DNA of 64,000 nt from contig NZ_CP102258.1 in assembly GCF_025146565.1 (NCBI RefSeq), positions 1,582,001 through 1,646,000 of the forward strand, given 5' to 3'. A program made the translations under genes and the position numbers. The notes under the pieces are model-generated. The model was given only the letters and a program-made list of their open reading frames with translations, had not been told where the DNA came from and searched no databases. How positions within the stretch are numbered: position 1 is the stretch's first letter; each line of letters starts with the position of its first letter. This document shows positions 26,620-50,833 of this stretch, piece by piece. The stretch is from Bacteroides eggerthii (GTDB taxonomy: Bacteria > Bacteroidota > Bacteroidia > Bacteroidales > Bacteroidaceae).

Positions 26620-27810
26620 ATGAATGCACAGTTTTTCATCAACGAGATCGGATGTAAATTCAACCTGAGAAAGCCCAAGTCCGAAAAGCCGACGAACGTT
26701 TATTTTGTAGCACGCGTCAGGAATAAACAGATAAAACTTTCTACTGGAGTAAGAGTATATCCGAACCAGTGGAACGTAAAGAAACAGGAGGCTTATATCA
26801 GCTGTCGGTTGACTGAGCTGGACAACGAGAACAACACCATCGTTAACGAAAAGATCAGTAAGCTAAAACTTTATTTTTCGGAATACAAGCAGTACCTTTG
26901 CGACCACCCTGAGGAAATAGAACGCAGGGCCATCATTTTACTCAAACAATATATCTATAAGGATACTATGAAGAAAAAAACGGAGAAACCTGCCACCTTC
27001 ATCATGAAACAGATCATAGAGGAGAAGGATATTGTAGATAGTTCAAAGAGTCAATACAGATCCAATATCAACAAGTTCAAACGGTTTCTATATGAGCACT
27101 CCATACCTGATACTTGGGAAAGTATGAACCTGGATACATTCACCAAATACCAGCAATTTTTGATAGAAGAAGGCAAGAAAGATAAGGATGGTAAAAAAGC
27201 TTCTACCATAAAGAATATTATAGGAGGTACCCTTTTCCCAATTCTTAGAAAGGCTTCCAAACGGCTTGACATCCCTTTCAAGTGGGATGAGAGTAATCTT
27301 GAAAGTTTCGAGCTGACGAAAGATAAGTCCAACAAGGAGCTTGCACGTAATAAAGAGGTGGCGCTGACGGAAGAACAGATTAAGCGGCTCTATGAGTACC
27401 GACCAACTGGCACAGAAAAGCAGATCAAAAAGAAAATGGAGATAAGAGATTTGTTCGTACTACAATGCCTCGTTGGCCAACGCGTCAGTGATATGCAGAA
27501 GCTTTTTAATGGTGATAACGAAAGGGATGAGGAGAACGGTACAATATCTATCGTCCAGCAGAAGACCGGAGCCAAGGCAATCATTCCTTTGGTTCCGATG
27601 GCTGAGGAAATCATAAATAAGTATACCGGAAAGGAGATCAAATATTATAAGGAAAGACGTTCCGCATTGAATGGTGAGTTAAGGGCAATAGCTCAAGAAG
27701 CAGGCCTTAATGAAGCTATAACCTATGAAGAGAACGGCACCAAATATACCAAACCGCTCTATGAGCTGCTCCACACCCATACCGCGAAACATCATACAAT
27801 CTCTATCTAA
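26620..27810 (+). pseudogene. Tyrosine recombinase, N-terminal part (gene split by insertion)
   Basis: The reading frame gives 396 residues, of which about 388 are native. It has an N-terminal arm-binding domain, a core-binding SAM-like domain (about 110-220) and the start of the catalytic domain. Catalytic Arg I is in LVGQRVSDMQ and the beta-strand Lys in VQQKTGAKAIIP. The native sequence stops at LLHTHTA and then runs into foreign codons and a stop at 27,808-27,810. The missing continuation, beginning ARHTFSTIMC, is found at 50,138. The fragment lacks the second Arg, the second His and the Tyr nucleophile, so it cannot catalyse recombination. Confidence 0.9.
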
Positions 27811-28203
27811 TTGAAAATTAAACAGTTATTTCTGTTTAATTAATATCAGGTAACGATTTAGAAACGAGCGAATTACAATATTCTGTTTTCTTTTGCCTCT
27901 GTCAAAGAACGATTCTTTCAATGCAAATATACACTTTACTTGTGACAAAAGCAATCTTTTTCTACATTTAATCGACTTACAGTCAGCCTTAAAGAGGGTA
28001 TCTGGTCTCATTCCATCTTCTTCCTCAAAAATAACATAGCAGTCTAAATTGGTTTATGTATGGGATAGGTCTTGTTCATTCGATCCGGTAGACTACTATA
28101 CATAAAAGTATAAAGGCGAGATACGACAAGGAGATGCCATGCTTTTGTGTAAGGGGAATCTCTCTTAGCTTATCGCAGACCATGTATAGCTAAGTGTTTT
28201 GAG
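27811..28203. other. Left-end region of the inner element, no confident gene
   Basis: A perfect 10-base hairpin, AATTAAACAG/CTGTTTAATT, lies at 27,816-27,841. One copy of the end-proximal direct repeat (CAATATTCTGTTTTCTTTTG) is at 27,876. A minus-strand TATATTTG box at 27,924-27,931 could drive transcription out of the element, antisense to the split integrase. A 61-residue minus-strand ORF (27,826-28,011) has no recognisable features and I do not call it. Confidence 0.5.
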
Positions 28204-29390
28204 AATAAACAGTCTGTAAAAAACGGAAAGACACCGATTATGGGCCGTATCACCATCAATGGAACCCAAGCCGGTTTCAGTTGTAAGAAAGAAGTGTCCC
28301 TCGCTTTGTGGGACGTCAAAACCAACCGGGCCAAAGGCAAGTCCGAGGAGGCCCGTACACTCAATCAGGAGCTTGACAATATCAAGGCGCAAATCACCAG
28401 GCACTACCAGTACATCTGCGACCACGACAGTTTTGTTACAGCCAAGAAAGTCTATAACCGCTATGTCGGCTTCTCAGAGGAATGCCACACCCTTATGAAC
28501 CTTTTCAGGGAACAGCTGGAACCGTATAAAAAGAAAATCGGCATAGAGAAAGCCGAAAGCACCTACTGCGGTCTGGTTGCCGATTACAAGAGTCTCCTGC
28601 TTTTCATGAAAAGCAAGAAGAATGCAGAGGATATTGTCATCGAAGAACTTGAGAAATCATTCATCGAGGATTACTACAACTGGATGCTCGGTACATGCGC
28701 TTTGGCAAACTCCACTGTCTTCGGGCGTGTCAATACCTTGAAGTGGCTGATGTATATCGCGCAGGAAAAAGGCTGGATACGGGTTCATCCGTTCGCATCA
28801 TTCGAGTGTATGCCCGAATACAAGAGGCGTTCTTTCCTTTCCGAAGAGGAACTGCAAAGGATAATCCATATAGAACCGAGATACAAACGCCAGCGTGCCA
28901 TGCGCGACATGTTCCTGTTCATGTGCTTCACCGGTCTTTCCTATGTGGACTTGAAAGCCATAACATACGATAATATCCATACCGACTCCGACGGCGGTAC
29001 ATGGCTGATGGGCAACCGTATAAAAACGGGAGTGGCGTATGTCGTAAAATTATTGCCCATTGCTATCGAACTGATTGAAAAATATAGGGGTACGGATGAA
29101 AAGAAAGACTCCCCGAATGTGTCTTTCCGGTAGGTGAATACAATGCCATGCGGCTCAGTCTTGGAATCATAGGCAGGAAATGCAACTCCGGGGCGAGGTC
29201 ACCCCGCACATCGGACGCCACGCATTTGCCGTTCTGGCCATACTCAAGGGGATGCTGCTGGAAACTCTTCAGAAAGTGTTTGGGCATAAGTCCATCACAT
29301 ACGTCCTGCGCATCCATTCACTTGTCCGGCGCAGGCGGGGCAATCTTTTTCTGGAAGTCGCCCATCTGTACGACCAGCGTGCTGACCAGC
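28204..29390 (+). pseudogene. Decayed tyrosine recombinase
   Basis: The frame carrying KNGKTPIMGRITINGTQ and on to PNVSFR is a Bacteroides integrase related to the one at 48,616-49,845 (KAPIMGRITLNRT). The first 15 or so residues are replaced by unrelated codons. A one-base frameshift near 29,125 moves it to FPVGEYNAMRLSLGIIGRKC. A second near 29,182 moves it to GEVTPHIGRHAFAVLAIL and FGHKSITYVLRIHSL. The Tyr region is damaged. At least three lesions make it non-functional. Confidence 0.85.
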
Positions 29391-29644
29391 TTTCTCAACT
29401 CCTAATACGCGCTTGTTTCAATAATTGTCAGTTCCATACTAAAATTCTTTTTAAGATTCTGAATATGCGACAAAGTAACGCACATCCTATATCCTTTCCA
29501 AACAGATAATATCAGAGTCTTCCGTTGGCGTGCATTGGCGTATCCAACGTTAAAAGAGAAGGTCCTTCACCTGCATCCATGCGGCAACGGAACTTCCATT
29601 CCCTTACTTGTTTTCCATAAATTTATAGGATTAATTTCTGGTGC

Positions 29645-29818
29645 ATGATATTAATAGTCATTATTCTGTCTGCTTTTTTTGCTTGCATAATTGCAGCTAA
29701 CAGTTATCTATTCCAGAACGCATTGTTATGGAAAATGGCAAGCTGTTTTGTTGGTTTATGGATATTGTGTATGATAATTACCGTCTTCGTTTGTCGTAAA
29801 CTTGAATGCTCTAATTAA
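29645..29818 (+). CDS. Candidate two-helix small membrane protein (57 aa)
   Basis: An ATG-to-TAA frame of 57 codons encodes two hydrophobic helices: about 1-23 (MILIVIILSAFFACIIAANS) and 28-51 (LLWKMASCFVGLWILCMIIT). A short tail ending CRKLECSN follows. The upstream ribosome site is weak. It lies between the decayed integrase and the B12 promoter. I recognise no family. Both helices in one frame argue for a real protein, but proof is lacking. Confidence 0.35.
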   Translation: MILIVIILSAFFACIIAANSYLFQNALLWKMASCFVGLWILCMIITVFVCRKLECSN

Positions 29819-29869
29819 AACAGTACGGTTGTCATGCTTTGTGTGTTTTATTATAAATATTATGAATTA

Positions 29870-29901
29870 TTTGGAATTGATATGTAATATAGATAATTTT
29901 G
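29870..29901 (+). promoter_or_regulatory. Promoter of the cobalamin uptake operon
   Basis: TTTG at 29,870-29,873 and TAATTTTG at 29,894-29,901 are separated by exactly 20 bases, a full match to the Bacteroides sigma consensus. The riboswitch begins a few bases downstream. Confidence 0.8.
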
Positions 29902-29907
29902 CAGTCG

Positions 29908-30075
29908 GGAAATGGTTTCGGGAGGTTTACGCCTTCCGAATGAAAAGGGAACCCGGTGAAAATCCGGGACAGTACCCGCTGCTGTGAGTCCACAAAAACG
30001 GACATCGAACTTTTGCCACTGGTGTAATACCGGGAAGGCACGATGACCGGGACGAGTCAGAAGACCTGCCATGAC
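29908..30075 (+). ncRNA. Cobalamin (AdoCbl-type) riboswitch aptamer
   Basis: Conserved aptamer elements occur in order: GGAACCCGGTGAAAATCCGG and CCCGCTGCTGTGA, the B12-box segment GCCACTGG, GGGAAGGC, and the closing AGTCAGAAGACCTGCC at 30,055-30,070. Together with the promoter upstream and the terminator before the first lipoprotein gene, this indicates B12-dependent attenuation of the uptake operon. Confidence 0.95.
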
Positions 30076-30162
30076 CGGAATGAGATTTACACCTGCGGGA
30101 TATACGGGTCGTAATCAAATAAGGAATAGCTCATCGGCCATTCAATATTTGAAGACAGACAT

Positions 30163-30201
30163 ATTCCCGTTCGTGTAAGTCCGCACGAACGGGAATTTTT
30201 T
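30163..30201 (+). terminator. Riboswitch expression-platform terminator
   Basis: ATTCCCGTTCGTG (30,163-30,175) pairs perfectly with CACGAACGGGAAT (30,184-30,196) and is followed by a T run. It lies 41 bases before the first gene. When cobalamin is bound, termination here would shut off the operon; this mode is inferred from the layout. Confidence 0.85.
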
Positions 30202-30242
30202 GTGTTTGTTAATAATATGTTTTACATTAAAATGAGTGACCT

Positions 30243-31160
30243 ATGAAAAGAAAATTACGCTTTCTGGCAGGTGCCTGTCTATTTACCGCAACCGCCTTGT
30301 TCTCTGGCTGTAGCTCGGACGATGACTTTTTGATGGACCCGGTTGATTCCGGAACTTCGCAAACCCGTGCTGTGACAAATTCGGACGGTACTTTAACTAT
30401 CACTTTCGATGATTTCGATCCCGGCATGTTAGCAGGACCTACCTCGGCCGGAGAAAATCTTTATTCGTACCAAGGGTATCCTCAAGTAACCACCATTTAC
30501 GACAATACTCCGGAAGAATATCTCTTCCTTTCAATGTTTAATACTGTAGGTGGAAGCACAGAGTATTCCAGCGGCGGCATCGCACTTTCCAACTGGAACA
30601 TCCGCTCCAATCAGTCGGGAAATACCGGAGACTGGTGGTATTCTTATCTAAACCAATGTTCTGTCTATAACACTGCGGTGGAAGCGGAAGGACAGAATAA
30701 GGAAGCCGGGCACAGCGGTTCCAATTTCGGTGTCGTTTACGGATATGTGGATGCTTACAATCAGGCATGGATGGCTAAACCAGAATTTTATTTCAATGTT
30801 CCCCGGAAATTGGTCGGCCTGTGGATCTGCAACACCTCATACACTTATGGTGTCATTACTTATGGTAATCAGTTCGGTTCTACGGGGGTAGCGACTCCTC
30901 TGAAAGAGATGAAAGGGTATTTCCAAGTGAATCTGGAATGTTATGATGCGAATGGCGGTCTGATCCGCACTTACAAACGTCTTTTAGCCGATTATCGTAA
31001 CGGCCAACAACAGGTTGATCCTATCACGACATGGGATTATTGGGAAATCAATGCCGAAGGGGTGCAAAGTGTGAAATTCAACTTCGAGGGTTCGGATTCG
31101 GGAGCATACGGTTTGAATACTCCGGCTTATATCTGTATTGATGATATCACCATACAATAA
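30243..31160 (+). CDS. DUF4465-type surface lipoprotein
   Basis: The 305-residue protein has a lipoprotein signal peptide (FTATALFSGCSSDDD), with the acidic residues after Cys typical of Bacteroides surface export. The rest is a beta-rich domain of DUF4465 type (TITFDDFD, YSSGGIALSNWN, FNVPRKLVGLWICNTSYTYG, ending AYICIDDITI). It is the first gene under the B12 riboswitch, so it probably helps capture or process corrinoids at the cell surface. A hairpin downstream (31,172-31,197) may lower expression of later genes. The exact role is unknown. Confidence 0.75.
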   Translation: MKRKLRFLAGACLFTATALFSGCSSDDDFLMDPVDSGTSQTRAVTNSDGTLTITFDDFDPGMLAGPTSAGENLYSYQGYPQVTTIYDNTPEEYLFLSMFNTVGGSTEYSSGGIALSNWNIRSNQSGNTGDWWYSYLNQCSVYNTAVEAEGQNKEAGHSGSNFGVVYGYVDAYNQAWMAKPEFYFNVPRKLVGLWICNTSYTYGVITYGNQFGSTGVATPLKEMKGYFQVNLECYDANGGLIRTYKRLLADYRNGQQQVDPITTWDYWEINAEGVQSVKFNFEGSDSGAYGLNTPAYICIDDITIQ

Positions 31161-31224
31161 AAAGAATACAAGGATATCCCTTCTGTCGGGGGTATCCCTG
31201 TTATTTTTCTAAAATCCACACATC

Positions 31225-33006
31225 ATGCATCGTTTTCACTATTTTATTATTTCTGCCTGTATGCTGTTCACCTCCTGCAACAAGGATGAAGTCATTACCG
31301 AAGAAGTAGGAGGACAACCTATAATAGAACTTGACAGCGAGACCGGTATTTACACGGTCAAGGTCGATCACGAATTGACTATCGCCCCGACATACCAGAA
31401 TGTTGAAGATGCTCTTTTTGCTTGGACGATAGACGGTACGCTGGTTTCTTCGGGTCCGTCTCTTCAACGTACATGGAATGAATGCGGGGATTTTTATGTC
31501 AAACTAAGAGTAGACAATGCGGAAGGCTATGCCGAAGAGGAACTGAAAGTAGAAGTGAAAGAACTCACCCCTCCGGTCATCTCACTGGCACTACCTTCGC
31601 AGGGGCTAAAAGTCGTCCGGAATACCGATTACACATTTACTCCCGATATTCAGCATTCGGATGTCGAAGGGTTCAAAATCGAATGGGTACGGGAAGGAAA
31701 AATCGTTTCCACCGAGAATACTTATACTTTCAATGAAAAAGAACTCGGTGTTTATACGGTGACAATCAACGCTTCCAATATAGATGGGACAACAACGAAA
31801 GACGTAAGCGTAGAGGTCGTGGAAACGATGCCCTACGTTGTCAAATTCCCGACCCCGTCTTACCTGCAAACATCCACGGACAGGTACACTTTTGCCGACC
31901 GTCCTGTTTTCCTGCGTCCGTTGTTGGAGTATTTCGACAATCCCCGTTTTGAGTGGAGTGTGGACGGTCAGGTCATGGAAGGAGAAGTGGAACGCATGTT
32001 CAAGTTCACGCCGTCCGCACCCGGAGAATACACCGTCTCCTGTACTGTGTCGGAAGACACACCGACGGAAAAAATAAGCAGGAATATCGACAAAGGGAAA
32101 ACGGCTGTCACTGCCACCGTAAAAGTCGTTTGTGTGGACAAAAAGGAACAAGACGGCTTCCGGGCTTCGGGAAGTTCCAAGCTCTGGAATAAAGTCTATG
32201 AATATACCCCAGCTCCCGGCCAATTTATCAACGAGACGAGCACGATAGGCGGTATGACCGGCAACGAAACATCCCCTGAAGCGGCTGTCGCATGGGCAAC
32301 ACAGCGTTTGAAAGACAAACTGCACGTCTCTTTAGGTTCTTTCGGGGGTTATATCATCGTCGGCTTCGACCACAGTATTCCCAATTCGGGTAACCAATAT
32401 GATTTCTGTGTTCAGGGGAACGCCTTTGACGGCAGTTCCGAACCGGGTATCGTATGGGTCATGCAAGATATAAACGGAAACGGATTGCCGGATGACGAGT
32501 GGTACGAACTGAAAGGATCTGAAGCAGGCAAGGAAGAAACAATACAGAATTTTGAAGTGACCTATTACCGTCCGGAAGGCAAAAAAATGGATGTCCAATG
32601 GATCAGTTCCGACGGTAGAAACGGCTGGGTAGACTATCTGTCCGCTTATCATACACAAGACTATTATTATCCGGCTTGGATTTCGGAAAACAGTTATACC
32701 CTGACAGGCACTTGTCTGGCCGCCCGCAACACCCAAGATTCTCAAACCGGTTATTGGGATAATCAGAGTTATGACTGGGGGTACGTGGATAATTTCGGAA
32801 ACGACCAGATAGAAGGCGGCAGTACGGTGGATGGAAGCGGACAAAGGAACGGTTTCAAAATTTCCAATGCCATCCATGCCGATGGAACGGAAGCCAATCT
32901 GCAATATATTGACTTTATCAAAATACAATGCGGTGTTCTGGCCAAAAGCGGCTGGCTGGGCGAAGTTTCTACGGAGGTATTTTCTTTTGAGGATCTAACC
33001 AAATAA
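31225..33006 (+). CDS. PKD/Ig-like multidomain surface lipoprotein
   Basis: The 593-residue lipoprotein has its lipobox in CMLFTSCNKDE. Three or so Ig/PKD-like repeats follow (residues 30-310: FAWTIDGTLVSS, FKIEWVREGKIVSTE, FEWSVDGQVMEG). The C-terminal domain of about 280 residues contains GGYIIVGFDHSI, DINGNGLPDDEWYEL and DFIKIQCGV. The middle gene of three surface lipoproteins behind the B12 riboswitch, it is likely an accessory cobalamin-binding or scaffold protein. The BtuH group is one candidate family, but I cannot confirm it. Confidence 0.7.
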   Translation: MHRFHYFIISACMLFTSCNKDEVITEEVGGQPIIELDSETGIYTVKVDHELTIAPTYQNVEDALFAWTIDGTLVSSGPSLQRTWNECGDFYVKLRVDNAEGYAEEELKVEVKELTPPVISLALPSQGLKVVRNTDYTFTPDIQHSDVEGFKIEWVREGKIVSTENTYTFNEKELGVYTVTINASNIDGTTTKDVSVEVVETMPYVVKFPTPSYLQTSTDRYTFADRPVFLRPLLEYFDNPRFEWSVDGQVMEGEVERMFKFTPSAPGEYTVSCTVSEDTPTEKISRNIDKGKTAVTATVKVVCVDKKEQDGFRASGSSKLWNKVYEYTPAPGQFINETSTIGGMTGNETSPEAAVAWATQRLKDKLHVSLGSFGGYIIVGFDHSIPNSGNQYDFCVQGNAFDGSSEPGIVWVMQDINGNGLPDDEWYELKGSEAGKEETIQNFEVTYYRPEGKKMDVQWISSDGRNGWVDYLSAYHTQDYYYPAWISENSYTLTGTCLAARNTQDSQTGYWDNQSYDWGYVDNFGNDQIEGGSTVDGSGQRNGFKISNAIHADGTEANLQYIDFIKIQCGVLAKSGWLGEVSTEVFSFEDLTK

Positions 33007-33020
33007 TAAAAATTACAAGT

Positions 33021-35111
33021 ATGAAAATTTATTTTCTTCCCATGCTCCTATCCTTGTTCTTTTTGGGAGCGTGTGACAAAAACGATGAAATTATACCTGA
33101 AGATGCAGATGAAAATTTCATCACATCGGTCGTGATGACCGTGGACGGGAAATCGTACACGGCCGACATTACGGACAATACAGTAACAATAACCGTTCCC
33201 TATACGGTATCGCTGAACAACGCCGAAGTGGAATTCAAGTACACAACTTCTGCAACAATCATACCTGATCCTGAAACGGTAACGGACTGGGATAACGAAC
33301 GAACCTTCCGGGTGACATCCTATAACGGAGATGCCCGCGAATATACCTATAAGGTCGTGAAAAGCGAGATAGAATCTGACGGAGATGTGGAGTTGAAGAC
33401 CACCGAGGAGGTAGCTTCTTTTGCCGCAACCAAAACAACCGTTGTCAAAGGGAACCTGATTATCGGCTCTGATGCGGAAGAGGCAGAAAAAATCACTGAC
33501 ATATCTGCATTGGCATCTTTGAAAGAGGTTACTGGCAACATTGTCATTCGTAACAGTTACAACGGTGCAGACTTGACAGGGTTGGATAATATCGTTTCTG
33601 CCGGAGGTTTACAGGTAGGTTCGACCGATGTCGCCTCGAAAGCTACGGAACTTCACATGATTTCCATGAAAGCATTGGAAACGCTCTCCGGAGACATATC
33701 GGTATATAACGACCAAGTGACGTATGTCCTATTCGAGAAACTGGCAACTATTGAAGGAAGCGTGATGTTCAATGCGTCGTCGTTACAGAGTTTTGAGTTT
33801 CCGGTTCTGACTACTGTAGGTCAGGATCTGAATCTTCAAGGACTCAATGAAGAGAACACAGCAGCCGGTTCGATTGCGTCTTTGGAAATACCGGAACTGA
33901 CAAGTGTCGGAGGGGTCTTGTCCGTAAACAATCTTGCCAAGCTGACTTCCATGAGCTTCCTTAAGCTGAAAGAGACCGGTGGCCTTGATTTCCATACCGT
34001 CCCCGTGATGTTGGAAACCATCAACCTTCCGGAAATCGAAACAGTAAACGGAAGTATTATTATGGAAGCCAATATGGAAGCTCCTCCTACCGGTAGTTTT
34101 GTTCCCCAACGAAATGACGTGCTTCAGGCTTTCGGTGGAATGGACAAACTGACAACGATAAAGGGACAGATAAAGATAAAGAATTTCACGGCACTCAAAC
34201 AACTTCCCGACTGGAGCAAGATCACCACACTTGGAAGCATCACGCTGGATTATCTTGAAGATGTGAGCGGAACACTGCTGTTGCCGAACGCCCGATTTGA
34301 AACCTTCGGAGAAACAGCGCCCCAGATTGAAATTATAAACAAGGTGCAGCTCTCCAAAATTGAAACAGCCGAAGATTTGTCAAATGTAAATTTTGTCATC
34401 ACCAGTCTCACGAATAATAAGTTCCCTGAAATCACGTTCAAGAATATCAAAGACTTCACTTGTAAGCCAACCACCAACAATACCGATTATACCATATCGA
34501 CAATTCAACATGTATATGGAAATCTAAATGTGACAGGCCAAATGCGAAGCAATGCCAAATTTCCCGACTTGGAAATCATAGATGGATATGGATATATCCA
34601 AATACCCATGTTTGCTTCAATCACAATGCCAGTCTTGAAAGAAGTGGGAGGACAGTTCTATTTATCTGGAAATTTTACCAGTTGTAACTTGCCCTTACTA
34701 TCCAAAGTTTGTTGTTCAGCTTCTCCTGTATATTATAAAGAGGGAGAGGGTTCGTTAGCAATATCTTTACAAAGTAAATCGCTGGATATTCCGGAATTGC
34801 TTCACGTAGGAGGTGAAGGGGTGTTCGTTAATAAAGCAACAGGCATTACTTGTGATAAATTACAGACTATAGATGGTACGCTACAGATAAAAAGTGCGAC
34901 TTCTCTTTCTCAGGAAACACTTTCCATGGAGAAGTTGGAGACCTTGCATGGGGTTGTTTTTGACGGTTTGACGAAATTTACCGACTACACTTTCTTCGGC
35001 AAGTTTATAGAAAACGGAATGATTACGGGGGAAAGTTGGAGCGTGACGAAATGTGGGTATAACCCAACCTTCCAAAATATGAAGGACAAACAATATACGC
35101 AGCAGGATTAA
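33021..35111 (+). CDS. Repeat-rich (LRR/L-domain-like) surface lipoprotein
   Basis: The 696-residue lipoprotein (LLSLFFLGACDKNDE) has an N-terminal DUF5018-like beta domain (about 30-125). A long run of leucine-rich-like repeats follows, e.g. LASLKEVTGNIVI, FEKLATIEGSVMF, FPVLTTVGQDLNLQ, LKLKETGGLDF, FPDLEIIDGYGYI. The fold expected is a solenoid exposed on the cell surface. It ends 16 bases before a strong terminator that precedes btuG. The ligand is unknown; its place in the operon points to corrinoid capture. Confidence 0.7.
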   Translation: MKIYFLPMLLSLFFLGACDKNDEIIPEDADENFITSVVMTVDGKSYTADITDNTVTITVPYTVSLNNAEVEFKYTTSATIIPDPETVTDWDNERTFRVTSYNGDAREYTYKVVKSEIESDGDVELKTTEEVASFAATKTTVVKGNLIIGSDAEEAEKITDISALASLKEVTGNIVIRNSYNGADLTGLDNIVSAGGLQVGSTDVASKATELHMISMKALETLSGDISVYNDQVTYVLFEKLATIEGSVMFNASSLQSFEFPVLTTVGQDLNLQGLNEENTAAGSIASLEIPELTSVGGVLSVNNLAKLTSMSFLKLKETGGLDFHTVPVMLETINLPEIETVNGSIIMEANMEAPPTGSFVPQRNDVLQAFGGMDKLTTIKGQIKIKNFTALKQLPDWSKITTLGSITLDYLEDVSGTLLLPNARFETFGETAPQIEIINKVQLSKIETAEDLSNVNFVITSLTNNKFPEITFKNIKDFTCKPTTNNTDYTISTIQHVYGNLNVTGQMRSNAKFPDLEIIDGYGYIQIPMFASITMPVLKEVGGQFYLSGNFTSCNLPLLSKVCCSASPVYYKEGEGSLAISLQSKSLDIPELLHVGGEGVFVNKATGITCDKLQTIDGTLQIKSATSLSQETLSMEKLETLHGVVFDGLTKFTDYTFFGKFIENGMITGESWSVTKCGYNPTFQNMKDKQYTQQD

Positions 35112-35127
35112 ACCTTATACCTTAACC

Positions 35128-35160
35128 AGAGTACCCGTAATGATTCGGGTACTCTTTTTT
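35128..35160 (+). terminator. Internal terminator between lipoprotein genes and btuG
   Basis: AGAGTACCCG (35,128-35,137) and CGGGTACTCT (35,146-35,155) form a perfect 10-base stem followed by six or more T residues. It sits only a few bases before the btuG start. It may set the ratio of surface lipoproteins to transporter. Confidence 0.85.
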
Positions 35161-35166
35161 ATCCGA

Positions 35167-41787: not shown

Positions 41788-41937
41788 TGATTCGGACATG
41801 AAATAAACAGACAAACTAACCACATTCGGTTCAATCTGTTTTGTGATTTCAAATGAATTATAGTTAGATATGTAAAAAGCGACGCTGGAGCTTGAAATAA
41901 GTAACGGTTTATCGGTGTATTCTCCGTTAAACCGTCC

Positions 41938-42182: not shown

Positions 42183-42738
42183 CTCCATTAACGAATTACT
42201 ACTTATACACTTCTGCAAATGGAGAATGGCATGTAGCCGTATACGCCTTATTGTTTTTTCTTCATCGTCTCCATTAATAGATTGCTACTTCTACACTTCT
42301 GCAAATGGAGAAATGGACATGTAGCCGTATATGCCTTATTGTTTTTCTTCATCGTCTCCATTAACGGATTGATACTTATACACATCTGCAAATGGAGAAT
42401 GGCATGTAGCCGTATATGCCTGATTGTTTTTCTTCATCGTCTCCATTAATGGATTGCTACTTATACACATCTGCAAATGGAGAATAACATGTAGCCGTAT
42501 ATGCCTGATTGTTTTTTCATCGTCTCCATTAATGGATTGCCACTTCTACACATCTGCAAATGAAGAATGACAGGTAGCCGTATACACCTTATTGTTTTTC
42601 TTCATCGTCTCCATTAATAGATTGCTACTTATACACATCTGCAAATGGAGAATGACAGGTAGCCATGTGTGACTTATGTTTTTCTTTATAGTTCTCCATT
42701 AGTGAATTGATATTTATACACTTCTGTAAATGGAGATT
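42183..42738. repeat. 85-base tandem repeat array (6.5 copies)
   Basis: The unit begins CTCCATTAA at 42,183, 42,269, 42,356, 42,441, 42,524, 42,609 and 42,694, spacing 83-87 bases, with the last copy partial. Each copy carries CTCCATT and AATGGAG about 30 bases apart, able to form a stem, then GTAGCCGTATATGCC and a T-rich stretch. Copies differ by point changes. There are no unique spacers, so it is not CRISPR. No ORF spans it. Confidence 0.9.
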
Positions 42739-43835
42739 TTAAGATATCTGTATCTGGAAAGGTGCGTGCTCCCTTCGCTTCCGGCTATCCTTATTTTAAT
42801 ATCCAGCTATATTGCAATTCTGTGATAGCATTATCCGGCTAGCGTATTATACGGCTATATACAAATATGGCTACACTATAATTCATGGTTGTGATGGAGA
42901 TGGCTCTTCCCATCCGGTAACATGACCATAATACCACGAGAAAAAAAGACGACGCCCACAGAGAAAAAACGGATGGAAGGGACGGTTACAGAATGACAGA
43001 TTTCAACAAATAGCCGGCTGTTTTTGGAGACAAGCTCGGATCTGAAGTTCCGGTCAATCAGCCGTCAAAGGGCTGTTCAGGTATATTATGCCATCAGGTA
43101 CAAGAATGTTTGTTATGGTAGTTTTCTCCGATTGTCATTAGGGAAAAAGGATTTCAAGGTATCCTGTTTGTTGGTATTCCGGCTGTTTGGTAATCAGGTA
43201 AATAGAAAGTCCGGTACATGTGAATTTAGGAGATCATCCCAGATGGTAATCTGTTAAAGAGTTTTTTGGAACATTTGAAATACCGATAATAAAAACGAAA
43301 TCAGGTATATGGACGCTGTCATACACCCACAACCTGCCATACCTCTATTCCGATAATTATATATGGTTATCCGTGTATATCGCTATATCCTTATTCCGAT
43401 AGAAGGGCGTATCGTTATCGTCGTATCTCTATATCTAAACATATGGCTATGTGCGTATCCGGCGGTATCATCGCCTTTCCCATCCGGGTCTGTCACAGGT
43501 TGGATAAGTTTTTAATCTGAAGGTAACCAGCCTGATGGTATAGGAACATGAAGAACTCTGTAATCATGGCATTTACCCGGGCAGAGAAGCCACATCTTTT
43601 ATTACCGAATTCTCGGCGTTGTTTCGTCCATGTGTGAAGAGGAGTTTTTTTCATCGCAACGTTCCTTTCACATACCCAAGGGGGGGAGTGAATCCAGCCC
43701 TGCTTCGGCTTTCTTTTTCTTTCCCATATGACAAAAACTAACTATCCATGACTATTCCTGCCAGTGGACTGGTTCTGTTTAGCAGGTATCTTTTTTTCTT
43801 TACATTCGTATCAACGAACATTAAAAATTGAGCGT
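42739..43835. other. Gene-poor stretch with degenerate TAT/ATC-rich repeats
   Basis: No gene is supported. Between about 43,340 and 43,480 a run of short units such as TATCCG, TATATC and CGTATC recurs, like the low-complexity tracts found beside plasmid-type genes in Bacteroides elements. At 42,921 a 24-codon frame begins MTIIPREKKTTPTEK and then stops; it may be the start of a lost gene. From about 43,726 the sequence parallels 46,570 onward. Confidence 0.5.
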
Positions 43836-44015
43836 ATGGAAATATACTACATTGAAGCCGGTGTCCTTGAGAGGATGCTGACATGCTTCGAGAATCTGTC
43901 CACACATGTGACAGATTGTATGAGAGAAAACGTTGTAAGGAACTCGGAGAATGACTGGGCGGTCAGGATGTCTGCCTGCTCCTTAACATCTCACCGTATC
44001 TTGCTTTCTTTTGAT
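43836..44015 (+). pseudogene. Truncated copy of the helix-turn-helix gene at 46,684
   Basis: It starts MEIYYIEAGVLERML, nearly the same as the copy at 46,684. One G is missing near 43,909, shifting the frame. Reading on in the restored frame gives a TGA at 43,952 at the same codon as the TGA in the other copy, then LGGQDVCLLLNIS, and the similarity ends near 44,010. Upstream about 110 bases are also shared with the other copy. Confidence 0.8.
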
Positions 44016-44097
44016 AGGTAATGAATGATTCAAACCTATGAATTCCGTTTATCCCTATCCTAAAAAAAGTTTTATTCCCTTCTTTCTTCTCCTTAAC

Positions 44098-46056
44098 TTA
44101 TTCAATATCAAATTCTTTCTTTAATAACTTAAAGAATACATTGTTTCTATTCGATGCAAGTTCATAAATGTCTTCAAAGGAATATAATTCTATCCTAATA
44201 TCCATTTTATTTCTCGGATTATCATCCTTAGAAAAATTGTCCTCAAAGTAATATGAATTTGCCAGGAATGGGATAGGTTTATATCCGCCACTAAAACTAT
44301 TGGATGTCAACTCCTTGTCTATATCGGATTTTCTAGCAAGAATGATACCTGTATATTGTACTTGCTCCGTATTCACAGTCCAATTCAATGTTTTATGTGG
44401 ATGCTTATAAAAATCGTGAGCGTATCTTTTAACCTGTGCTATCATTCCTTCTTTGGTATTTCCTGCATTATGTGCGTTTGTTGTTGATTTTAACTCAAGG
44501 ATCAGAATTTGTTTTGTTTTTTCTGGGTCATCAGCCCAAATGTAAACATCTGACAAAGGTTGCCCTGACTTGGTGCTTTTAACTTTGAAATCGTTTGAGA
44601 ATGTTGTGAACTTGTCATCAAGAATCCAAAGATTATGTAAATGATTGATATTTGAAGAATCACTTAAAGTTGTTCCTCTTTTAATAAAGAGTTCATGTAC
44701 AGAGCTTTCTAATTCTGATTTATCATTTCCGTCTTCATCAAATTTTTGAATTAACATATGCAAACGTTTCAATACACTTTCTCGATGTTTGACATATATA
44801 TGCAAACTTGAGTTTAAAAGCTTATAACATTCTTCAGAATCACTAAAAAGTTTATCTTCTTCATTTTCGAACTCTCTATCTATTTGATTCCAGAACTTTT
44901 TCTCTATCCTACTCTTCTCGTCAATAGCAGATTGTACAATATCTTTCTCATTTACTATCTTTTTATCATCGATAATATTACTATCTTCAATAAATGTCTC
45001 AAGCGAGGGGTACTTCTTTTTGAAATTCTTTAAATTACGCTTTGTCTCCTTTTGGTTGTTCTCTATAATAGAGCTAAATTCAATATCCAAGATCTCATTT
45101 ATTTTCTTATTTATTTTTAATATATCATCAACTGGGATTTCTATTTTTTCGCCTTTTGTGTCGACATGTTCATCGAAATATTCCGATGTTAAATACAATA
45201 AATAACCGTCATTATTATCAATTGAATAACTTAATTTTCCATTGGATAAATCTGCTTTCAAGTTCCTTGCAAAACAGGTTACCGGATTCTCTCCATGCAT
45301 TTGTGTTCCTTTTTTTATCAACCATAGCATAAAAGATTTATTACCCTCTGCGAGATTGATTTCAAAAGGTTTTCTTTCTGTTTCAGATTCAATATTTCCT
45401 TTTTTTACAGTAACATCCTCTCCATTGAAAATAATATTTACTACAAGCTGTTCATTGGTTACAATGAATGGAAAAAAAGTTTCTATAAACCATTGTTTAA
45501 ATGCTTTTGAGTTTGGGTATTTATAAAAAAAAGTTTTTGCTCGTCCTAATGTGTTTTGTTTGTTTAAGTATGCTGTCAGCTTGGTATAGGTATCTTTTAT
45601 TTCTGGCATCTCTTCTACAAACTCATCAAAATTAAAAAGTCCATCAGATGTATTTGGATATGGAATGGTTCGCTTTTGATATGTACCATCTTTATCCTTA
45701 TACACCGTTTCATATTCAGATGAGTCGGTAAAGTATACAATAGCCAATCTCCCTTGGCCCAAAGGATGGAAATTAAACTGCTCCTTTTCCAGGTTTTTTT
45801 TATCAAGTTCTTCAAAATAGAGACGATTTTTTTCTGTAAAGCCTTCACCATTATCCCTTAATTCGATTTTACATTGATTTTCATCAAAAGTAATATTCAG
45901 GTCTAGCTGAGGGATAAAATTCGTTTCTTTATTTTGCCGAATTAAAACGGCATGTATGGAATTGGAAATTATCTCTCTTAATAAAAGAAAGAATTTTTCA
46001 CGGCTATTCTTATATTCTTTCTCTGCCCTGTATTGAACGTTTGATTTCTGTTCCAT
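44098..46056 (-). CDS. GHKL ATPase fused to PD-(D/E)XK nuclease, likely defence protein
   Basis: The 652-residue protein has an Hsp90/MutL-type ATP site: EIISNSIHAV with N32, DNGEG at 68-72, and a glycine lid LGQGRLA at 99-105. A middle domain (about 190-300) and a long helical, charged linker (about 315-470) follow. The C-terminal part has D503 in SDVYIW, E521-L-K523 in ILILELKS and a downstream QVKRY, the signature of a PD-(D/E)XK nuclease. MORC/MutL-like ATPases with nuclease domains are known from restriction-type systems. The gene is A+T-rich and flanked by duplicated sequence. The defence role is inferred. Confidence 0.7.
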   Translation of the reverse strand: MEQKSNVQYRAEKEYKNSREKFFLLLREIISNSIHAVLIRQNKETNFIPQLDLNITFDENQCKIELRDNGEGFTEKNRLYFEELDKKNLEKEQFNFHPLGQGRLAIVYFTDSSEYETVYKDKDGTYQKRTIPYPNTSDGLFNFDEFVEEMPEIKDTYTKLTAYLNKQNTLGRAKTFFYKYPNSKAFKQWFIETFFPFIVTNEQLVVNIIFNGEDVTVKKGNIESETERKPFEINLAEGNKSFMLWLIKKGTQMHGENPVTCFARNLKADLSNGKLSYSIDNNDGYLLYLTSEYFDEHVDTKGEKIEIPVDDILKINKKINEILDIEFSSIIENNQKETKRNLKNFKKKYPSLETFIEDSNIIDDKKIVNEKDIVQSAIDEKSRIEKKFWNQIDREFENEEDKLFSDSEECYKLLNSSLHIYVKHRESVLKRLHMLIQKFDEDGNDKSELESSVHELFIKRGTTLSDSSNINHLHNLWILDDKFTTFSNDFKVKSTKSGQPLSDVYIWADDPEKTKQILILELKSTTNAHNAGNTKEGMIAQVKRYAHDFYKHPHKTLNWTVNTEQVQYTGIILARKSDIDKELTSNSFSGGYKPIPFLANSYYFEDNFSKDDNPRNKMDIRIELYSFEDIYELASNRNNVFFKLLKKEFDIE

Positions 46057-46134
46057 GATGATACTACAATTTTTTGAAGGCTATTTATTTCATATAAAAT
46101 AAACTCAACATATATTCTACTTGACGATAAAAGA

Positions 46135-46312
46135 TCACTTGGCCACTTCAACCGACATCTTACGGAATTCCTTAAGCAAACTCCTTAATTCCAACGTAGC
46201 TTTACGTGCTTTCATACCTGCCACATTGTTGCCTTTGGAAACCAGCTGTTCCACATCTTTTTGAAAACGGCAAATTTTCTCTGAATGTCAACAAGAAGTT
46301 TGTTTATATCCT
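46135..46312 (-). pseudogene. Remnant of a histone H1-like (Hc1) protein gene
   Basis: The minus strand encodes DVEQLVSKGNNVAGMKARK followed by a basic helical tail ending EVAK and a stop at 46,135-46,137, as in small Bacteroides histone H1-like nucleoid proteins. The upstream part (LFKDINKLLVDIQ) is in another frame because one T is missing near 46,268, and no start codon is present. Confidence 0.65.
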
Positions 46313-46683
46313 TAAAAAGTGTTTATTGACCAGTGATTTTATAATCATAGTTACAAAAATAAGATTTAAATTCCAAATAATTAAATGTTCCAGTCTCTTT
46401 TTATTGAAAAGACTACGAAGGACACATAAGGTTCAGGAGCAATTCCTCGTTTGGAACCACTTGTTGAAATCGCAATGATAAAGTTCTTAGCCTATATGGA
46501 GCACTCCAGAGGTTTTATACTCATTTTTTTGATACTTATTTTGTACGGTGGGGATTTTTTCTTTACCTCTTTCGCATGACAATAGCCGACTATCCATGAC
46601 TATTCCTGCCAGTGTGCCGGTCGTGCTTGCCTCTCATGTTTTTTTCCCTTATATTCGCTCCGACATTTAAATGAGTTGAAAAT

Positions 46684-47007
46684 ATGGAAATATGCTACAT
46701 CGAGGCCGGTGTCCTTGAGAGGATGCTAGCACGTGTCGAGAGCCTGTCCACACATGTGGACAGATTGTATGAGAGAAACCGCTGTAAGGAACCCGGCGAG
46801 TGACTGGACGGCCAGGATGTCTGCCTGCGCCTTGACATCTCGCCGCGTACCCTGCAGACCCTCCGCGATACTGGACGGCTGGCGTTCACCCGCCTCCAGC
46901 GGAAGTTCTATTACAAACCCGAGGATGTGGAGAAGCTGATGACCTACGTTGGCATCAGACGCAAGGAGAAGGCGGTGAGGGAAAGAAGAAAGAACGGATA
47001 CCTTTAA
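46684..47007 (+). pseudogene. Helix-turn-helix protein with internal TGA
   Basis: The frame runs 107 codons from MEICYIEAGVLERML to RRKNGYL. Codon 40 is TGA (46,801-46,803), between KEPGE and LDGQDVCLRLDISPRTL. In Bacteroides homologues I remember this place as Trp (GEWL). The C-terminal part is a MerR/excisionase-type HTH (RTLQTLRDTGRLAFTR). It precedes a second HTH gene by 12 bases. It is either a nonsense pseudogene, re-initiated as a shorter protein, or recoded. Confidence 0.65.
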
Positions 47008-47019
47008 AGAACGGAAGAA

Positions 47020-47313
47020 ATGGAAGGAATTATCGATAAGGAAGACGGGCGCATCCGCAGGTTCTTCGCCCTGCTGGACAATATAGAGAAAAAAGTGGAA
47101 CGTCTTGCCTGTGACAACCGTCCTCCCTTCAACGGGGAACAGTTCCTGACCGACAGGGAGCTTTCCGAGACATTGAAGATCAGCCGCAGGTGCCTGCAGG
47201 ATTACAGGGACCAAGGACGGATTCCCTATATCCAGCTCGGTGGGAAGATCCTGTACAGGCAGTCGGACATCGAGAAGCTGCTGGAGGAGAATTATCACCC
47301 TGCATTGGTATAA
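47020..47313 (+). CDS. Helix-turn-helix (excisionase-like) protein
   Basis: The 97-residue protein has a basic HTH of the HTH_17 type: FLTDRELSETLKISRRCLQDYRD, then GRIPYIQLGGKILYRQSDIEKLL. Such proteins accompany integrases of Bacteroides elements and act as excision or control factors. It converges on the two integrase genes and shares a terminator with them. Confidence 0.85.
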   Translation: MEGIIDKEDGRIRRFFALLDNIEKKVERLACDNRPPFNGEQFLTDRELSETLKISRRCLQDYRDQGRIPYIQLGGKILYRQSDIEKLLEENYHPALV

Positions 47314-47331
47314 TATCGTATTCAAGTTTAA

Positions 47332-47373
47332 GGATTGCCGCCGGAATTGCATTTACGATTCCGGCGGCAATCC
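47332..47373. terminator. Bidirectional terminator between HTH and integrase genes
   Basis: GGATTGCCGCCGGAAT (47,332-47,347) pairs perfectly with ATTCCGGCGGCAATCC (47,358-47,373), a 16-base stem with a 10-base loop between convergent genes. Confidence 0.88.
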
Positions 47374-47377
47374 TTAT

Positions 47378-48595
47378 TTAGTCGGCGGCTTCCTTGCCGG
47401 CCGCATCCGCGGACTTTCTTCTTTCCATCAGCCGGTCCATGTCCGAGGATATCTTCCGGTCGGTGACCTGGGCGTAGACCTGCGTGCTGTCGATGTTTGT
47501 ATGGCCCATCATCCTGGCGATGCTCTCTATCGGAATACCCGCGGTCAGCGTCAGGGTCCCGAACGAATGCCGGGCCATATGGTAGGACAGGTTCTCCCTC
47601 ATCCCCAGTGCCACGCCCATCCCGTGCACCTCGTACCAGAGGACGTCGCGGACAGGCAGCGGGAATACCGGCTTGCCCTCATCCGTGGTGTTGTAAAGCT
47701 CCAGTATCTGTTCGGCCACGGGGTGCAGCGGGATGAACGCCTCCACGTCCGTCTTGGCCCGGCGGATGCGGATATACCTTCTCCCTTCCGAGGTCTTCCC
47801 GATGTGCCGGGGATGGAGAGCCCTCGTGTCCGCGTAGGCAAGCCCGGTCATACAGGAGAAGATGAATGTCCTGCGCGCCAGCTCCATCATCGGGTCGGGC
47901 ATCGGGGTCTCCATCATCCGCTTCAGTTCATTGCGGCTGATATGCCTTAGTTTAGGTGCATCTTTCTTCTCGTATGCCACATCTTCTATCGGGTTGGTCC
48001 GCAATACTTCCCGGTCCACGGCGATGTAGATGAGCCGGTTGAGCCAGCACAGGCAGTGGTTCACATGCCCGTTCCTGTGTCCCAGCTCCTTCTTGAGAAA
48101 GACCTTGAACGATTCGGCGAACTCCCCGGTGATGTCCGAAAAGGCGATGTCCTTCATCCCGCGGGATTCGACGAACTGCCTGAGATTGAGCTGTGTGGTC
48201 TTCGACTGGCGGTAGGTCGAGGTGGAGTTGATCTCCTTGGAGCGGACCCTGAGACGTTCGCGTTCCACCTCTCCGGCCTGCAGGAGATATTCCGGCACGG
48301 AATTGGCACCTGACACGGTGGTCTTGAGCAGCTCGGCCGTGACCACCCCCTGGTTCCTCAGCAGGTTCCCGTACGCCTTCTCCAGCCGGCTGCGGAAGGC
48401 GGCAAGGCGGTTGTTCTCCCTGACTGTTTTGGTTTCATACTTCTTGCTGTCCCAGTCACCGGGCCTGCAATAGATGCCGGTGGTAACGGCTGACTTCTTG
48501 CCGTCAATGCTGATGCGGCAGAGGACGGCGGTCGTACCGTCCGATTTCACCTTGTTACGGTTGATGTAGAATAAGAGTTTGAATGTACTGCGCAT
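47378..48595 (-). CDS. Tyrosine recombinase (integrase), second of tandem pair
   Basis: The 405-residue protein has an arm-binding N-terminus (FKLLFYINRNKVKSDGTTAV), a core-binding domain and a catalytic domain. Arg I is in SCMTGLAYAD context, the Lys in IRRAKTDVEAF, HxxR in YHMARHSFGT, the next His in MMGHTNI and the Tyr in STQVYAQVT. Arg I appears replaced: the usual TGLRxSD reads TGLAYAD, as in many Bacteroides integrases. It lies 20 bases after a similar integrase gene, probably in one transcript. Confidence 0.93.
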   Translation of the reverse strand: MRSTFKLLFYINRNKVKSDGTTAVLCRISIDGKKSAVTTGIYCRPGDWDSKKYETKTVRENNRLAAFRSRLEKAYGNLLRNQGVVTAELLKTTVSGANSVPEYLLQAGEVERERLRVRSKEINSTSTYRQSKTTQLNLRQFVESRGMKDIAFSDITGEFAESFKVFLKKELGHRNGHVNHCLCWLNRLIYIAVDREVLRTNPIEDVAYEKKDAPKLRHISRNELKRMMETPMPDPMMELARRTFIFSCMTGLAYADTRALHPRHIGKTSEGRRYIRIRRAKTDVEAFIPLHPVAEQILELYNTTDEGKPVFPLPVRDVLWYEVHGMGVALGMRENLSYHMARHSFGTLTLTAGIPIESIARMMGHTNIDSTQVYAQVTDRKISSDMDRLMERRKSADAAGKEAAD

Positions 48596-48615
48596 GATAA
48601 TGATATTTTTTAGGA

Positions 48616-49845
48616 TTAAAGAATGAGTTTCAAATCACGGGTCGTCTCGATGAACCTGTCCATGTCCTCGAACAGTCTCTTAGGGGTCACGCGCGCGTAG
48701 ACTTGGGTGGTCTTTATGTTGGAGTGTCCCAGCATTTTGCTGATGGTCTCGATCGGAACCCCCTCCTCGAGCGTGACCAGGGAGGCGAAAGAATGTCTTC
48801 CCATGTGGTAGACGAGGTCCTGGCTGAGCCCCGCCATCAGGCGCAGGGATTTCATGTTGGCCCTGAGCGTGTGGTAGTCCTGCGGCGGGAAGAGGGTGGC
48901 GCGGGTATCGTCACGGTACTTTTCGATCAGTGCGAGGGCCTCCGGCAGCAGCTTGACGCGTCCGAGGTAGTCGGTCTTCTTCCGCCGGTATTTCAGCCAG
49001 AGGCTGCCCTCGTCATCCCAAAAGAGGTTCTCCCGGGTGATGCTTACCGCATCGGCATAGGCGGTACCGGTGTAACAGGCGAAGAGGAAGAGATCCCGGG
49101 TGATGACATGTGACCTGCGTTTTTCTGGTATCTCCAGATCACGCAGCTTCTCGAAATTCTCACGGCTGAGTGCTTTCGGTGTTGTCTCCTTCTGCTTGGG
49201 CAGCTTGAAGTGGCAGAAATGATATTTCTCCGAGTGCCCTTCCTTGTAGGCGATGCGGCAGATCTTTTTCAAGATAGACAGGTAATGGCGCACCGTCTCC
49301 ATCGCCAGTCTCTTCTTTTCCAGGCAGAAGTCCTGGTAGTCACGGATGAACTGCTCGTTGAGCTGTCCGAAAGCAAGGTCCGAGACCTTGAATTCCGTTT
49401 TGATGAATTCGGCAAGGGTGCGCCGGGTGTACACGTAGGTCGACATTGTTGTCGGCGCACGGTCCACGCCTACACGGGCCTTCATCTCTTCATTGTGCCG
49501 GTCGAGAAGTTTGAGCAGGGTCATCTGCATGCCCGCGTTACCCTGGAACATGTCCCTGACCGCGGCGGCATCGAAATCCTTTTTCCTTTCCATGAGGGAA
49601 TTGAAGGCCGAGTGTACGGCAAGCAGCAGTCTCTCTATTTTTTCATTGGTCTCCACCGCTTCACGGCTCTTGCCGTTCAGCCGGCTCTCACGTGCGTTCC
49701 ATAGTCCGGGGGTACAGGAGAGCTTGCAGCTGAACTGCGCCATCGTGCGGTTGAGGGTGATCCGTCCCATGATCGGGGCCTTGCCGGTCTTGTCCGGCTC
49801 GCTCTTTTTCAGGTAGAGCAGCACCTTGAATTTTTCCACTTTCAT
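48616..49845 (-). CDS. Tyrosine recombinase (integrase), first of tandem pair
   Basis: The 409-residue protein starts MKVEKFKVLLYLKKSEPDK. Catalytic features are ACYTGTAYAD (Arg I position occupied by Ala), RRKKTDYLGRVKL, HMGRHSFASL, MLGHSNIKTTQVYARVT with the Tyr. It is related to the decayed integrase at 28,204. With its neighbour it is the probable integration machinery of the inner element. Tandem tyrosine recombinases can act jointly on insertion; here this is inferred. Confidence 0.93.
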   Translation of the reverse strand: MKVEKFKVLLYLKKSEPDKTGKAPIMGRITLNRTMAQFSCKLSCTPGLWNARESRLNGKSREAVETNEKIERLLLAVHSAFNSLMERKKDFDAAAVRDMFQGNAGMQMTLLKLLDRHNEEMKARVGVDRAPTTMSTYVYTRRTLAEFIKTEFKVSDLAFGQLNEQFIRDYQDFCLEKKRLAMETVRHYLSILKKICRIAYKEGHSEKYHFCHFKLPKQKETTPKALSRENFEKLRDLEIPEKRRSHVITRDLFLFACYTGTAYADAVSITRENLFWDDEGSLWLKYRRKKTDYLGRVKLLPEALALIEKYRDDTRATLFPPQDYHTLRANMKSLRLMAGLSQDLVYHMGRHSFASLVTLEEGVPIETISKMLGHSNIKTTQVYARVTPKRLFEDMDRFIETTRDLKLIL

Positions 49846-49959
49846 AACGCTCTTTTTAGGTTGTAAAAATACTCCTTTGAAAAGCGTCCTTTGGCATGCA
49901 AAACATTGATAAACAGTGAATACAAATCCGCTTTGTTCCTATCGGTAAAAACTTGGTTA

Positions 49960-50093
49960 CCTGCCGTTGTTTCCGAAACAGGCGGCTAACAGTCTGGTAA
50001 CTGAAACGCTGCAATATTTTGTTTTCTTTTGCAGGTCTGTTTATTATGCAATTTTCGCAAAATGCTTAATTATAAACGATTTACGTTTAATTC
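49960..50093. promoter_or_regulatory. Candidate recombination/control site region at the right end
   Basis: A 13-base palindrome TGTTTCCGAAACA lies at 49,968-49,980. Two GGTAAC-type repeats are near 49,954 and 49,996. The direct repeat CAATATTTTGTTTTCTTTTG starts at 50,012. An imperfect palindrome, TAAACGATTTACGTTTA, lies around 50,073-50,089 and recalls the left-end hairpin. The set is what arm-type integrase sites would look like. Confidence 0.5.
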
Positions 50094-50137
50094 TCGTCAT
50101 TCTGTTTTTTATTGCATTTCTAAATTTTACTTATTCT

Positions 50138-50833
50138 GCACGGCACACATTCTCTACCATCATGTGCCGTAGGGGTGTTCCGAGAGAGGATATAATCATT
50201 GCGACGGGCCATGAAGATACCCAGATGTTGGATAAGATATACGCCCACCTGACCGCCAAGGACAAATCCAGGAAGGTGACAACTGCATTCAAGAAGAAGC
50301 TTGGTGACGGCATTTTCGATATGGGAGGCCAGCCAGAACCGGAAGATGGCGAACAGACACCGGCTCCAACTGTTCCGGCCAACCCCAAGCAGAAGACAGA
50401 CGTATTCAACTACGTCTTTGCCGGTGACCTACTGCTGAAACTCTCCAGGCTGAAGAATAAAGGTATAGACATCACAAAACTAGCTGACACTGAGGAAGCC
50501 GTGAAAACACTCAAGGACGTCGGCAGGATAGATGAGATAGACAAGGATAAATACAAGGACAATACACGATTGCGTGATAAGGTAGCCAAGATTGCCTCCG
50601 TCGTATGGTTCATCGCATTCAAACGGAACGATGCGGTACTGATACAGATGTTCCAGAACAATATCACGGAGCTGGGCCTGAGGAACATCTTTCTCAACGG
50701 GGAGATTATGAGGGAGGCCAGGCTCGAATCCCTGATGAATGGCGATGAAAAGGTCCTGAAATTCGTGGAGGTGCTGAATATCAGAAGCATGGAGGAGCTG
50801 GAGGAGTATGAAAAGCGGGATAAGGGTAGATAA
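50138..50833 (+). pseudogene. Tyrosine recombinase, C-terminal part (of the gene at 26,620)
   Basis: The native frame resumes ARHTFSTIMCRRGVPRE with the catalytic Arg and His, then ATGHEDTQMLDKIYAHLT with the second His and Tyr. A further 170-residue helical extension ends YEKRDKGR. It begins exactly where the piece at 26,620-27,783 ends. The reading frame is open upstream to 49,967 but that stretch is inner-element DNA encoding no recognisable protein. The fragment alone cannot be active. Confidence 0.88.

Follow-up and report, generated by a model that had tools for sequence, protein, structure and literature searches.

A 22-kb Bacteroides element splits a tyrosine recombinase gene at its catalytic motif and has relatives at the same codons of many other integrase genes

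Results

A tyrosine recombinase gene interrupted at H-x-x-R

The 64,000-nucleotide (nt) stretch of the Bacteroides eggerthii genome analysed here (contig NZ_CP102258.1, positions 1,582,001 to 1,646,000; hereafter the window) contains a tyrosine recombinase gene that a 22.3-kb element (27787-50133; Table 1) cuts within the catalytic H-x-x-R motif, parting the His codon from the Arg codon, and we refer to the interrupted gene and the element that carries it as outer and to the inserted element as inner. The Pfam Phage_integrase profile (PF00589) matches the N-terminal piece at profile positions 3-87 (22.9 bits) and the C-terminal piece at 133-170 (26.7 bits), both slightly below the curated cut-off of 27.1 bits. 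Both pieces align side by side on the same intact integrase (L137, with an open frame of 605 amino acids, aa) and are thus halves of one kind of gene rather than parts of different integrase families: all 389 residues of the N-half align (66% identity, nt 1501-2652), and the C-half picks up at nt 2650, with its first 76 of 231 residues aligning at 57% (63 of 231 at 65% against L138). The two alignments overlap by one codon, that of an Ala found in both flanks: the LLHTHT of the N-half runs to 27783 and is followed by GCG (27784-27786), and the right flank has GCA at 50138-50140. The original prediction, made from the letters of the window, had described one recombinase in two pieces, cut at H-x-x-R without loss or overlap; its positions hold to within one codon and the halves are contiguous on L137, but the Ala residue is shared by both flanks. 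A gene of the outer type was found at an expectation (E) value of at most 1e-60 in three of the 60 genus genomes searched, counting the source genome. Among the 31 PF00589 matches in the 4.2-Mb source genome, three are C-terminal-only fragments (profile start at 127 or later) and all three adjoin the inner-element family, which argues that the split is not a chance event.

Table 1. Features of the interrupted integrase gene and of the inner element, in window coordinates
Feature	Position	Strand	Remark
Outer tyrosine recombinase, N-terminal half	26620..27786	+	Ends ...LLHTHTA at catalytic motif
Left copy of 7-bp overlap, TACCGCG	27780..27786	+	His codon third base plus two x codons; encodes H-T-A as in L137
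Inner element, 22,347 bp	27787..50133		Ends are limits of identity to the Bacteroides bouchesdurhonensis copy (left within 3 bp)
Left core half-site AAACATCATACAATC	27787..27801	+	Resembles the Arg-His codons it replaces
Third tyrosine recombinase of inner element	28240..29509	+	Broken, two frames: 28240-29133, 29180-29509
Likely vitamin B12 (corrinoid) uptake cargo	30243..41224	+	NCBIfam matches below curated cut-offs
DUF2284 protein, cargo	41197..41787	+	
652-aa protein	44098..46056	-	Without match in Pfam, NCBIfam, PHROG, PADLOC
HTH_17 DNA-binding protein	47020..47313	+	Next to recombinase pair in many relatives
recB, second tandem tyrosine recombinase	47378..48595	-	
recA, first tandem tyrosine recombinase	48616..49845	-	About 290 bp from right end; census query
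Right core half-site TCTAAATTTTACTTA	50119..50133	+	Right end of element
Right copy of 7-bp overlap, TTCTGCA	50134..50140	+	x-x is S-A; 3/7 bases differ from left copy
Outer recombinase, C-terminal half	50141..50833	+	From catalytic Arg codon (CGG): RHTFSTIMCRRG...

Attachment site, empty sites and 7-bp overlap

Both ends could be reached for nine elements of the family, and left ends for these nine only: the one in the window, two further copies in the source genome (own1 and own2), G064C6, G064C16, G149C1, G015C1, the relative in Phocaeicola vulgatus ATCC 8482 (L082) and a copy in Bacteroides bouchesdurhonensis. In all nine the N-half continues as far as CA and a further 7 bp, and the C-half begins 7 bp past the right end of the element. 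The left and right 7-mers are unequal in every case, by one base in L082 and by three to six in the others. A single parent gene for both halves was demonstrated for the window, own1 and own2, and is likely for G149C1.

Uninterrupted versions of target genes, the empty sites that the original prediction proposed to look for, were recovered for both other copies in the source genome. The own1 target is intact in three genomes, which are 98.99-99.39% identical over the 494-nt N-flank and 99.0-100% over 200 nt of the C-flank and have exactly 7 bp, CAAGGCG, between the N-flank (nt 1-494) and C-flank matches; the right flank of own1 carries this native 7-mer and the left flank TTGCTCA. The own2 N-flank has matches in 28 of 149 genus genomes (source genome counted), and among the matches listed the gene is intact, with its halves adjacent, in 10 of 11 relatives; here it is the left 7-mer that is native (H-C-G) and the right one that is foreign (H-V-A). 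Moreover, two loci (L012 and L013) share a target downstream and differ in their right 7-mers. Together with the unequal 7-mers of the nine elements, this is as expected from exchange of a heterologous overlap. Base counts at the junctions (82 rows) were not used as core evidence, since choosing rows by H/Y-x-x-R/G-H fixed the key bases (A at -8, G at +1, C at +3 and A at +4).

The eleventh relative of the own2 target (L140, G192:C1) has an apparent other insertion at the same place. Judged from left ends, L140 and L161 (G183:C94) are apparent insertions of the family in relatives of the own2 and own1 targets, respectively.

The B. bouchesdurhonensis copy (G292) is 99.5% identical to that of the window over 14,869 bp and 92.9% over 3,569 bp, and lies in another integrase gene, whose N-half ends ...GIKKRLSYH-LA and whose C-half reads ..RHTFATMLLSKGVPIES. 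Finding near-identical copies in two different integrases indicates that the element moved between them recently. Likewise, the three family copies in the source genome have hit three different integrases.

Census of relatives and their right flanks

With recA as query, 21 of 151 family genomes (source genome counted) gave matches at E of at most 1e-120, and a search of a named genome collection contributed 80 of 115 loci. Removal of 11 duplicates from the total of 110 loci left 99 unique right junctions, 95 of them at 55% or higher identity to recA; the four below this value (L025, L026, L027 and L036) were set apart, own2, for which the search gave no locus, lies outside the 95, and the group is defined by sequence identity alone. 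The scan covered the 87 flanks with a peptide of at least 20 aa from the candidate Arg codon onward; the remaining eight (L065, L066, L075, L084, L095, L099, L116 and L125) had no flank or no such peptide, with L075 and L125 integrase-like by eye.

PF00589 was matched (E of at most 0.01) by 75 of the 87 scanned flanks, beginning at the Arg codon, a count that carries a bias because the peptide frame was selected by motif score. A random-position control was run for that score: values of 9 or more were reached by 72 of the 95 flanks, by none of the four more distant relatives and by 22 of 5000 random positions, which were drawn from the same, themselves integrase-rich, loci. A looser motif rule gave 82 of 95 but admitted false cases (L021, L063 and L065), and the Pfam count was therefore used. 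Both results support the earlier suggestion that H-x-x-R is an attractive general target, and other copies of the element do not, for the most part, sit in unrelated sites.

The targets are diverse: at an ungapped identity of 70% the C-halves form 48 clusters, and at 50% they form 25 (79 peptides starting with RH or GH, at least three of which are non-integrase by eye). One target, in L079, is apparently itself a recA-type gene (by eye). None of the C-halves compared is close to the XerC/XerD-like proteins of the genome, the best reaching 67% over 36 aa. Nearly all of the 99 loci are labelled Bacteroidota, the named hosts including Bacteroides, Parabacteroides, Phocaeicola, Dysgonomonas, Prevotella, Segatella, Barnesiella, Odoribacter and Butyricimonas, and three metagenome bins (L101, L108 and L131) have Clostridia-type labels.

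Three individual records may be added. A relative on a 15.5-kb B. finegoldii replicon annotated as circular plasmid ('plasmid 58', NZ_OY725960.1; L209, outside the census counts) adjoins an integrase C-half reading YVARHSYATVLKRSG... A virome record (L211) has no integrase half at the expected position. At the right junction of G149C1 (L030), which occurs also in Bacteroides ndongoniae, the C-half begins with GGA CAC (Gly-His) instead of the expected Arg-His; the site may have decayed since the insertion, or the overlap may be shifted.

A strict DNA motif and the element's own genes

The strict motif CAYNNNNNNMGNCAYWSNTTYGC has five matches in the source genome, all five inside PF00589 genes, and the reversed pattern, used as control, has none. 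Two of the five are recA genes of the inner-element family, so that the sequence of the element's own gene gives it no protection. Moreover, a single frame in L034 (521-1804) joins recA residues 1-345 (93.6% identical to own1 recA) to recB residues 338-416 (87.3%). The joint falls precisely on H-x-x-R, and its 7-mer matches neither that of own1 recA nor that of own1 recB; this fusion is likely the footprint of recombination between two target sites.

Gene content of the inner and outer elements

The genes recA and recB are neighbours in the window and in nine of ten other regions compared, the tenth (G043C6a) having no recB match. Among solved structures, a sequence search recovered generic tyrosine recombinases (eight sequences, including XerD and phage-type integrases). 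The adjacent HTH_17 protein would be a candidate directionality factor. The likely B12 cargo comprises a DUF4465 protein, PKD-domain and Receptor L-domain proteins and a DUF5074 protein, together with a TonB-dependent receptor and BtuF-, BtuC- and BtuD-like proteins (NCBIfam, below cut-offs); DUF4465 is described as a B12 binder in PMC13398666. The 652-aa protein was not found in the 19.2-kb B. bouchesdurhonensis copy. No relaxase or mobilisation genes were found among the scanned open reading frames of the window's element (all except two, of 70 and 208 aa). A relaxase (PF03432) and a DUF3408 protein are encoded by the P. vulgatus ATCC 8482 relative, and some members of the family are thus likely mobilizable.

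By eye, similar direct sequences lie near both ends of the inner element, at 27849-27898 and about 49994-50035. These sequences (left, GGTAAC...CAATATTCTGTTTTCTTTTGC; right, GGTAACTGAAACG..CAATATTTTGTTTTCTTTTGC) are possible arm-binding sites. The outer element contains, at 52989-56196, a DRT type 3 pair (Drt3a, E=1e-107; Drt3b, E=7e-148), in which Drt3b extends over two overlapping frames (54275-54562 and 54532-56196) and may be broken.

Discussion

Catalytic-motif codons as a proposed attachment site

The recurrence of one codon junction in so many integrases leads us to propose, with high confidence, that, for elements with such a recombinase pair, the codons of the catalytic motif in many kinds of integrase serve as bacterial attachment site (attB). 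The recA/recB pair, which we infer to perform the cutting, would bind two half-sites, one resembling the codons for [F/Y]-H and the other those for R-H-[T/S]-F, and would cut at a spacing of 7 bp, so that the overlap spans the two x codons and the last base of the His codon; this overlap would be exchanged even where the 7-mers of donor and target differ. Insertion would leave the integrase without its Arg, second His and Tyr and so inactivate it, and the outer element, itself likely mobile, would then be unable to excise by itself, having lost the catalytic Arg and everything downstream. Since the overlap holds only two variable codons, excision would restore H-x-x-R whatever 7-mer remains and with it, presumably, the integrase gene.

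Several observations weigh against this proposal. The strict motif marks only five of the 31 PF00589 matches and so predicts no target by itself; it also misses the own2 target, and the intact relatives of that target do not fit it. From both of these points we take the strict motif to be narrower than the true site. Twelve of the 87 scanned flanks have no Phage_integrase match, some of which may be short or decayed integrases (L059, for example, by eye), and eight of the 95 unique loci lie outside the scan. Placed by eye, the flank of L023 is a putAbiC gene and that of L134 an insertion sequence (IS) transposase, in keeping with single Pfam matches among the 87 to putAbiC and to the transposase domain DUF772, and that of L063 is the end of what we take, by eye, to be a TolC-like gene. 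The two 7-mers of L082 are distinguished by a single base. In one of the nine pairs, G015C1, the halves stem from two different recombinases: compared with the L025 pair, the N-half matches recombinase 1 at 93.7% identity, and over 18 residues the C-half looks by eye like recombinase 2; this is probably the result of a deletion that fused two neighbouring targets. Finally, excision, a circular form and transposition are predictions from sequence, and the outer element may keep its mobility if an intact integrase encoded elsewhere could act in trans. An RNCAY-like core can still be made out by eye in several of the flanks without an integrase match, as expected if the DNA, and not the function of the gene, is recognised.

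What the target choice might mean

The same site choice can be read without any advantage in harming other elements. The family may simply be specific for a conserved, dispensable and multi-copy site, with the damage to the outer element a by-product of no selective meaning, and to this we would give an even chance. The source genome offers 31 PF00589 matches, and the strict motif falls in integrases each time; the likely B12 uptake genes are cargo that would serve the cell; and no C-half among those compared is close to the XerC/XerD-like proteins, as expected if insertions into essential copies were purged. This account conflicts with no observation and differs from predation only in the object of selection.

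A second possibility is a reversible switch of the developmental type, in which the integrase is restored on excision and the outer element's mobility is thereby timed. Confinement of the overlap to the variable x codons, which would leave H-x-x-R in frame after excision, speaks for it, as does the L034 fusion, joined exactly at that motif and with an unlike 7-mer. However, near-identical inner elements occur in different outer integrases, which argues against any fixed pairing, and decayed C-halves exist (an early stop in L014; a broken frame in L059, by eye); we consider such a switch improbable.

The division of an integrase gene at the ends of an element also recalls an SSV-type split, in which the broken integrase is the inserted element's own and its attP lies inside the gene. 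Here, however, the order is N-half, element, C-half, with both halves external to the element, which encodes a recombinase pair of its own, and the integrases beside near-identical copies differ; with intact empty sites for the own1 and own2 targets, and the B. bouchesdurhonensis copy, we reject this explanation, whose probability we regard as negligible. Insertion by chance or by homologous recombination, for which it could be said that mobile elements often nest and that integrases are common in regions rich in mobile DNA, is likewise rejected as next to impossible, since the same codon junction recurs, exact in position and beside conserved element ends, in dozens of different integrases (72 of 95 flanks against 22 of 5000 random positions).

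Going beyond site specificity, we put forward tentatively, at a little under even confidence, that the family is hyperparasitic, with mobile elements in general as its prey. The code for the catalytic motif of tyrosine recombinases would be its attachment site; the family would enter very many kinds of integrase, also recombinases of its own kind, freeze the element that hosts it and carry a 7-bp record of the last integrase visited, and its excision would regenerate H-x-x-R. A benefit to the inner element would be part of this reading.

Relation to known elements

In Tn916, CTnDOT and Tn4555 a heterologous coupling-sequence overlap is exchanged, the flanks are not simple direct repeats, and AT-rich or short host sites are used. 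The flanking 7-mers of the family described here are likewise unequal, but both of its half-sites resemble integrase codons.

The usual landing sites of integrative elements are host genes such as tRNAs or a single gene of one element family (PMC5704250). Streptococcal integrative mobilizable elements (IMEs) and Tn1806-like integrative conjugative elements (ICEs) nest in genes of other ICEs; they are site-specific and split a conserved gene of another mobile element, as the family described here probably does (PMC5357655, PMC5704250, PMC12942858). The targets given there are snf2, maff2, traG, oriT and methylase genes, many with serine integrases, whereas the target here is the catalytic motif of many tyrosine recombinases (75/87 PF00589), not snf2, maff2, traG or oriT. 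CTnPi2-a of Prevotella intermedia is reported to be inserted in an integrase gene, and CTnPi2-b and CTnPi3 are in tRNA genes (PMC4755523); the accessible text of that report presents CTnPi2-a as a single case, with no shared site, motif or general preference described. BoCTn, a conjugative transposon of Bacteroides with a B12 transport locus (PMC11005914), shares B12 uptake cargo with the window's element but is conjugative, and integrase targeting is not mentioned in the part of the report available. In the literature, most subscription papers excepted, we found no description of integrase genes as a general target class.

Similar in organisation are the Tyr-duo mobilizable transposons MTnPi1, MTnPi2 and MTnPi3 of P. 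intermedia (PMC4755523, PMC5704250), which, like the present family, have two tandem tyrosine recombinases and Bacteroidales hosts. The MTnPi1-type relaxase feature is shared by the P. vulgatus relative and was not found in the window's element. The att sites of MTnPi1-3 are given as TTAC/TTGC-N5-AA in PMC5704250, whereas the family here uses CA-N7-MG inside integrase genes. The four loci set apart from the census (48-54% identity to recA) have no adjoining integrase, and three of them, L025-L027 (48-49%), end in TTAC, 5 bp and two purines (TTAC-N5-RR, by eye). Since these ends are like the att sites listed for MTnPi1-3, the integrase-targeting group is likely, from sequence comparison, a branch of the Tyr-duo elements with an altered target.

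Significance

In the family described here a whole enzyme class serves as landing site, by way of its least changeable codons. If this is true, the family would have many targets that the cell can spare, and the outer element would be stopped from moving. The same process may be the origin of integrase halves left stranded in gut genomes and suggests a search rule, resting on the three of three C-terminal-only fragments in this genome that mark the inner-element family: a C-terminal integrase fragment starting at the Arg of H-x-x-R would mark such elements.

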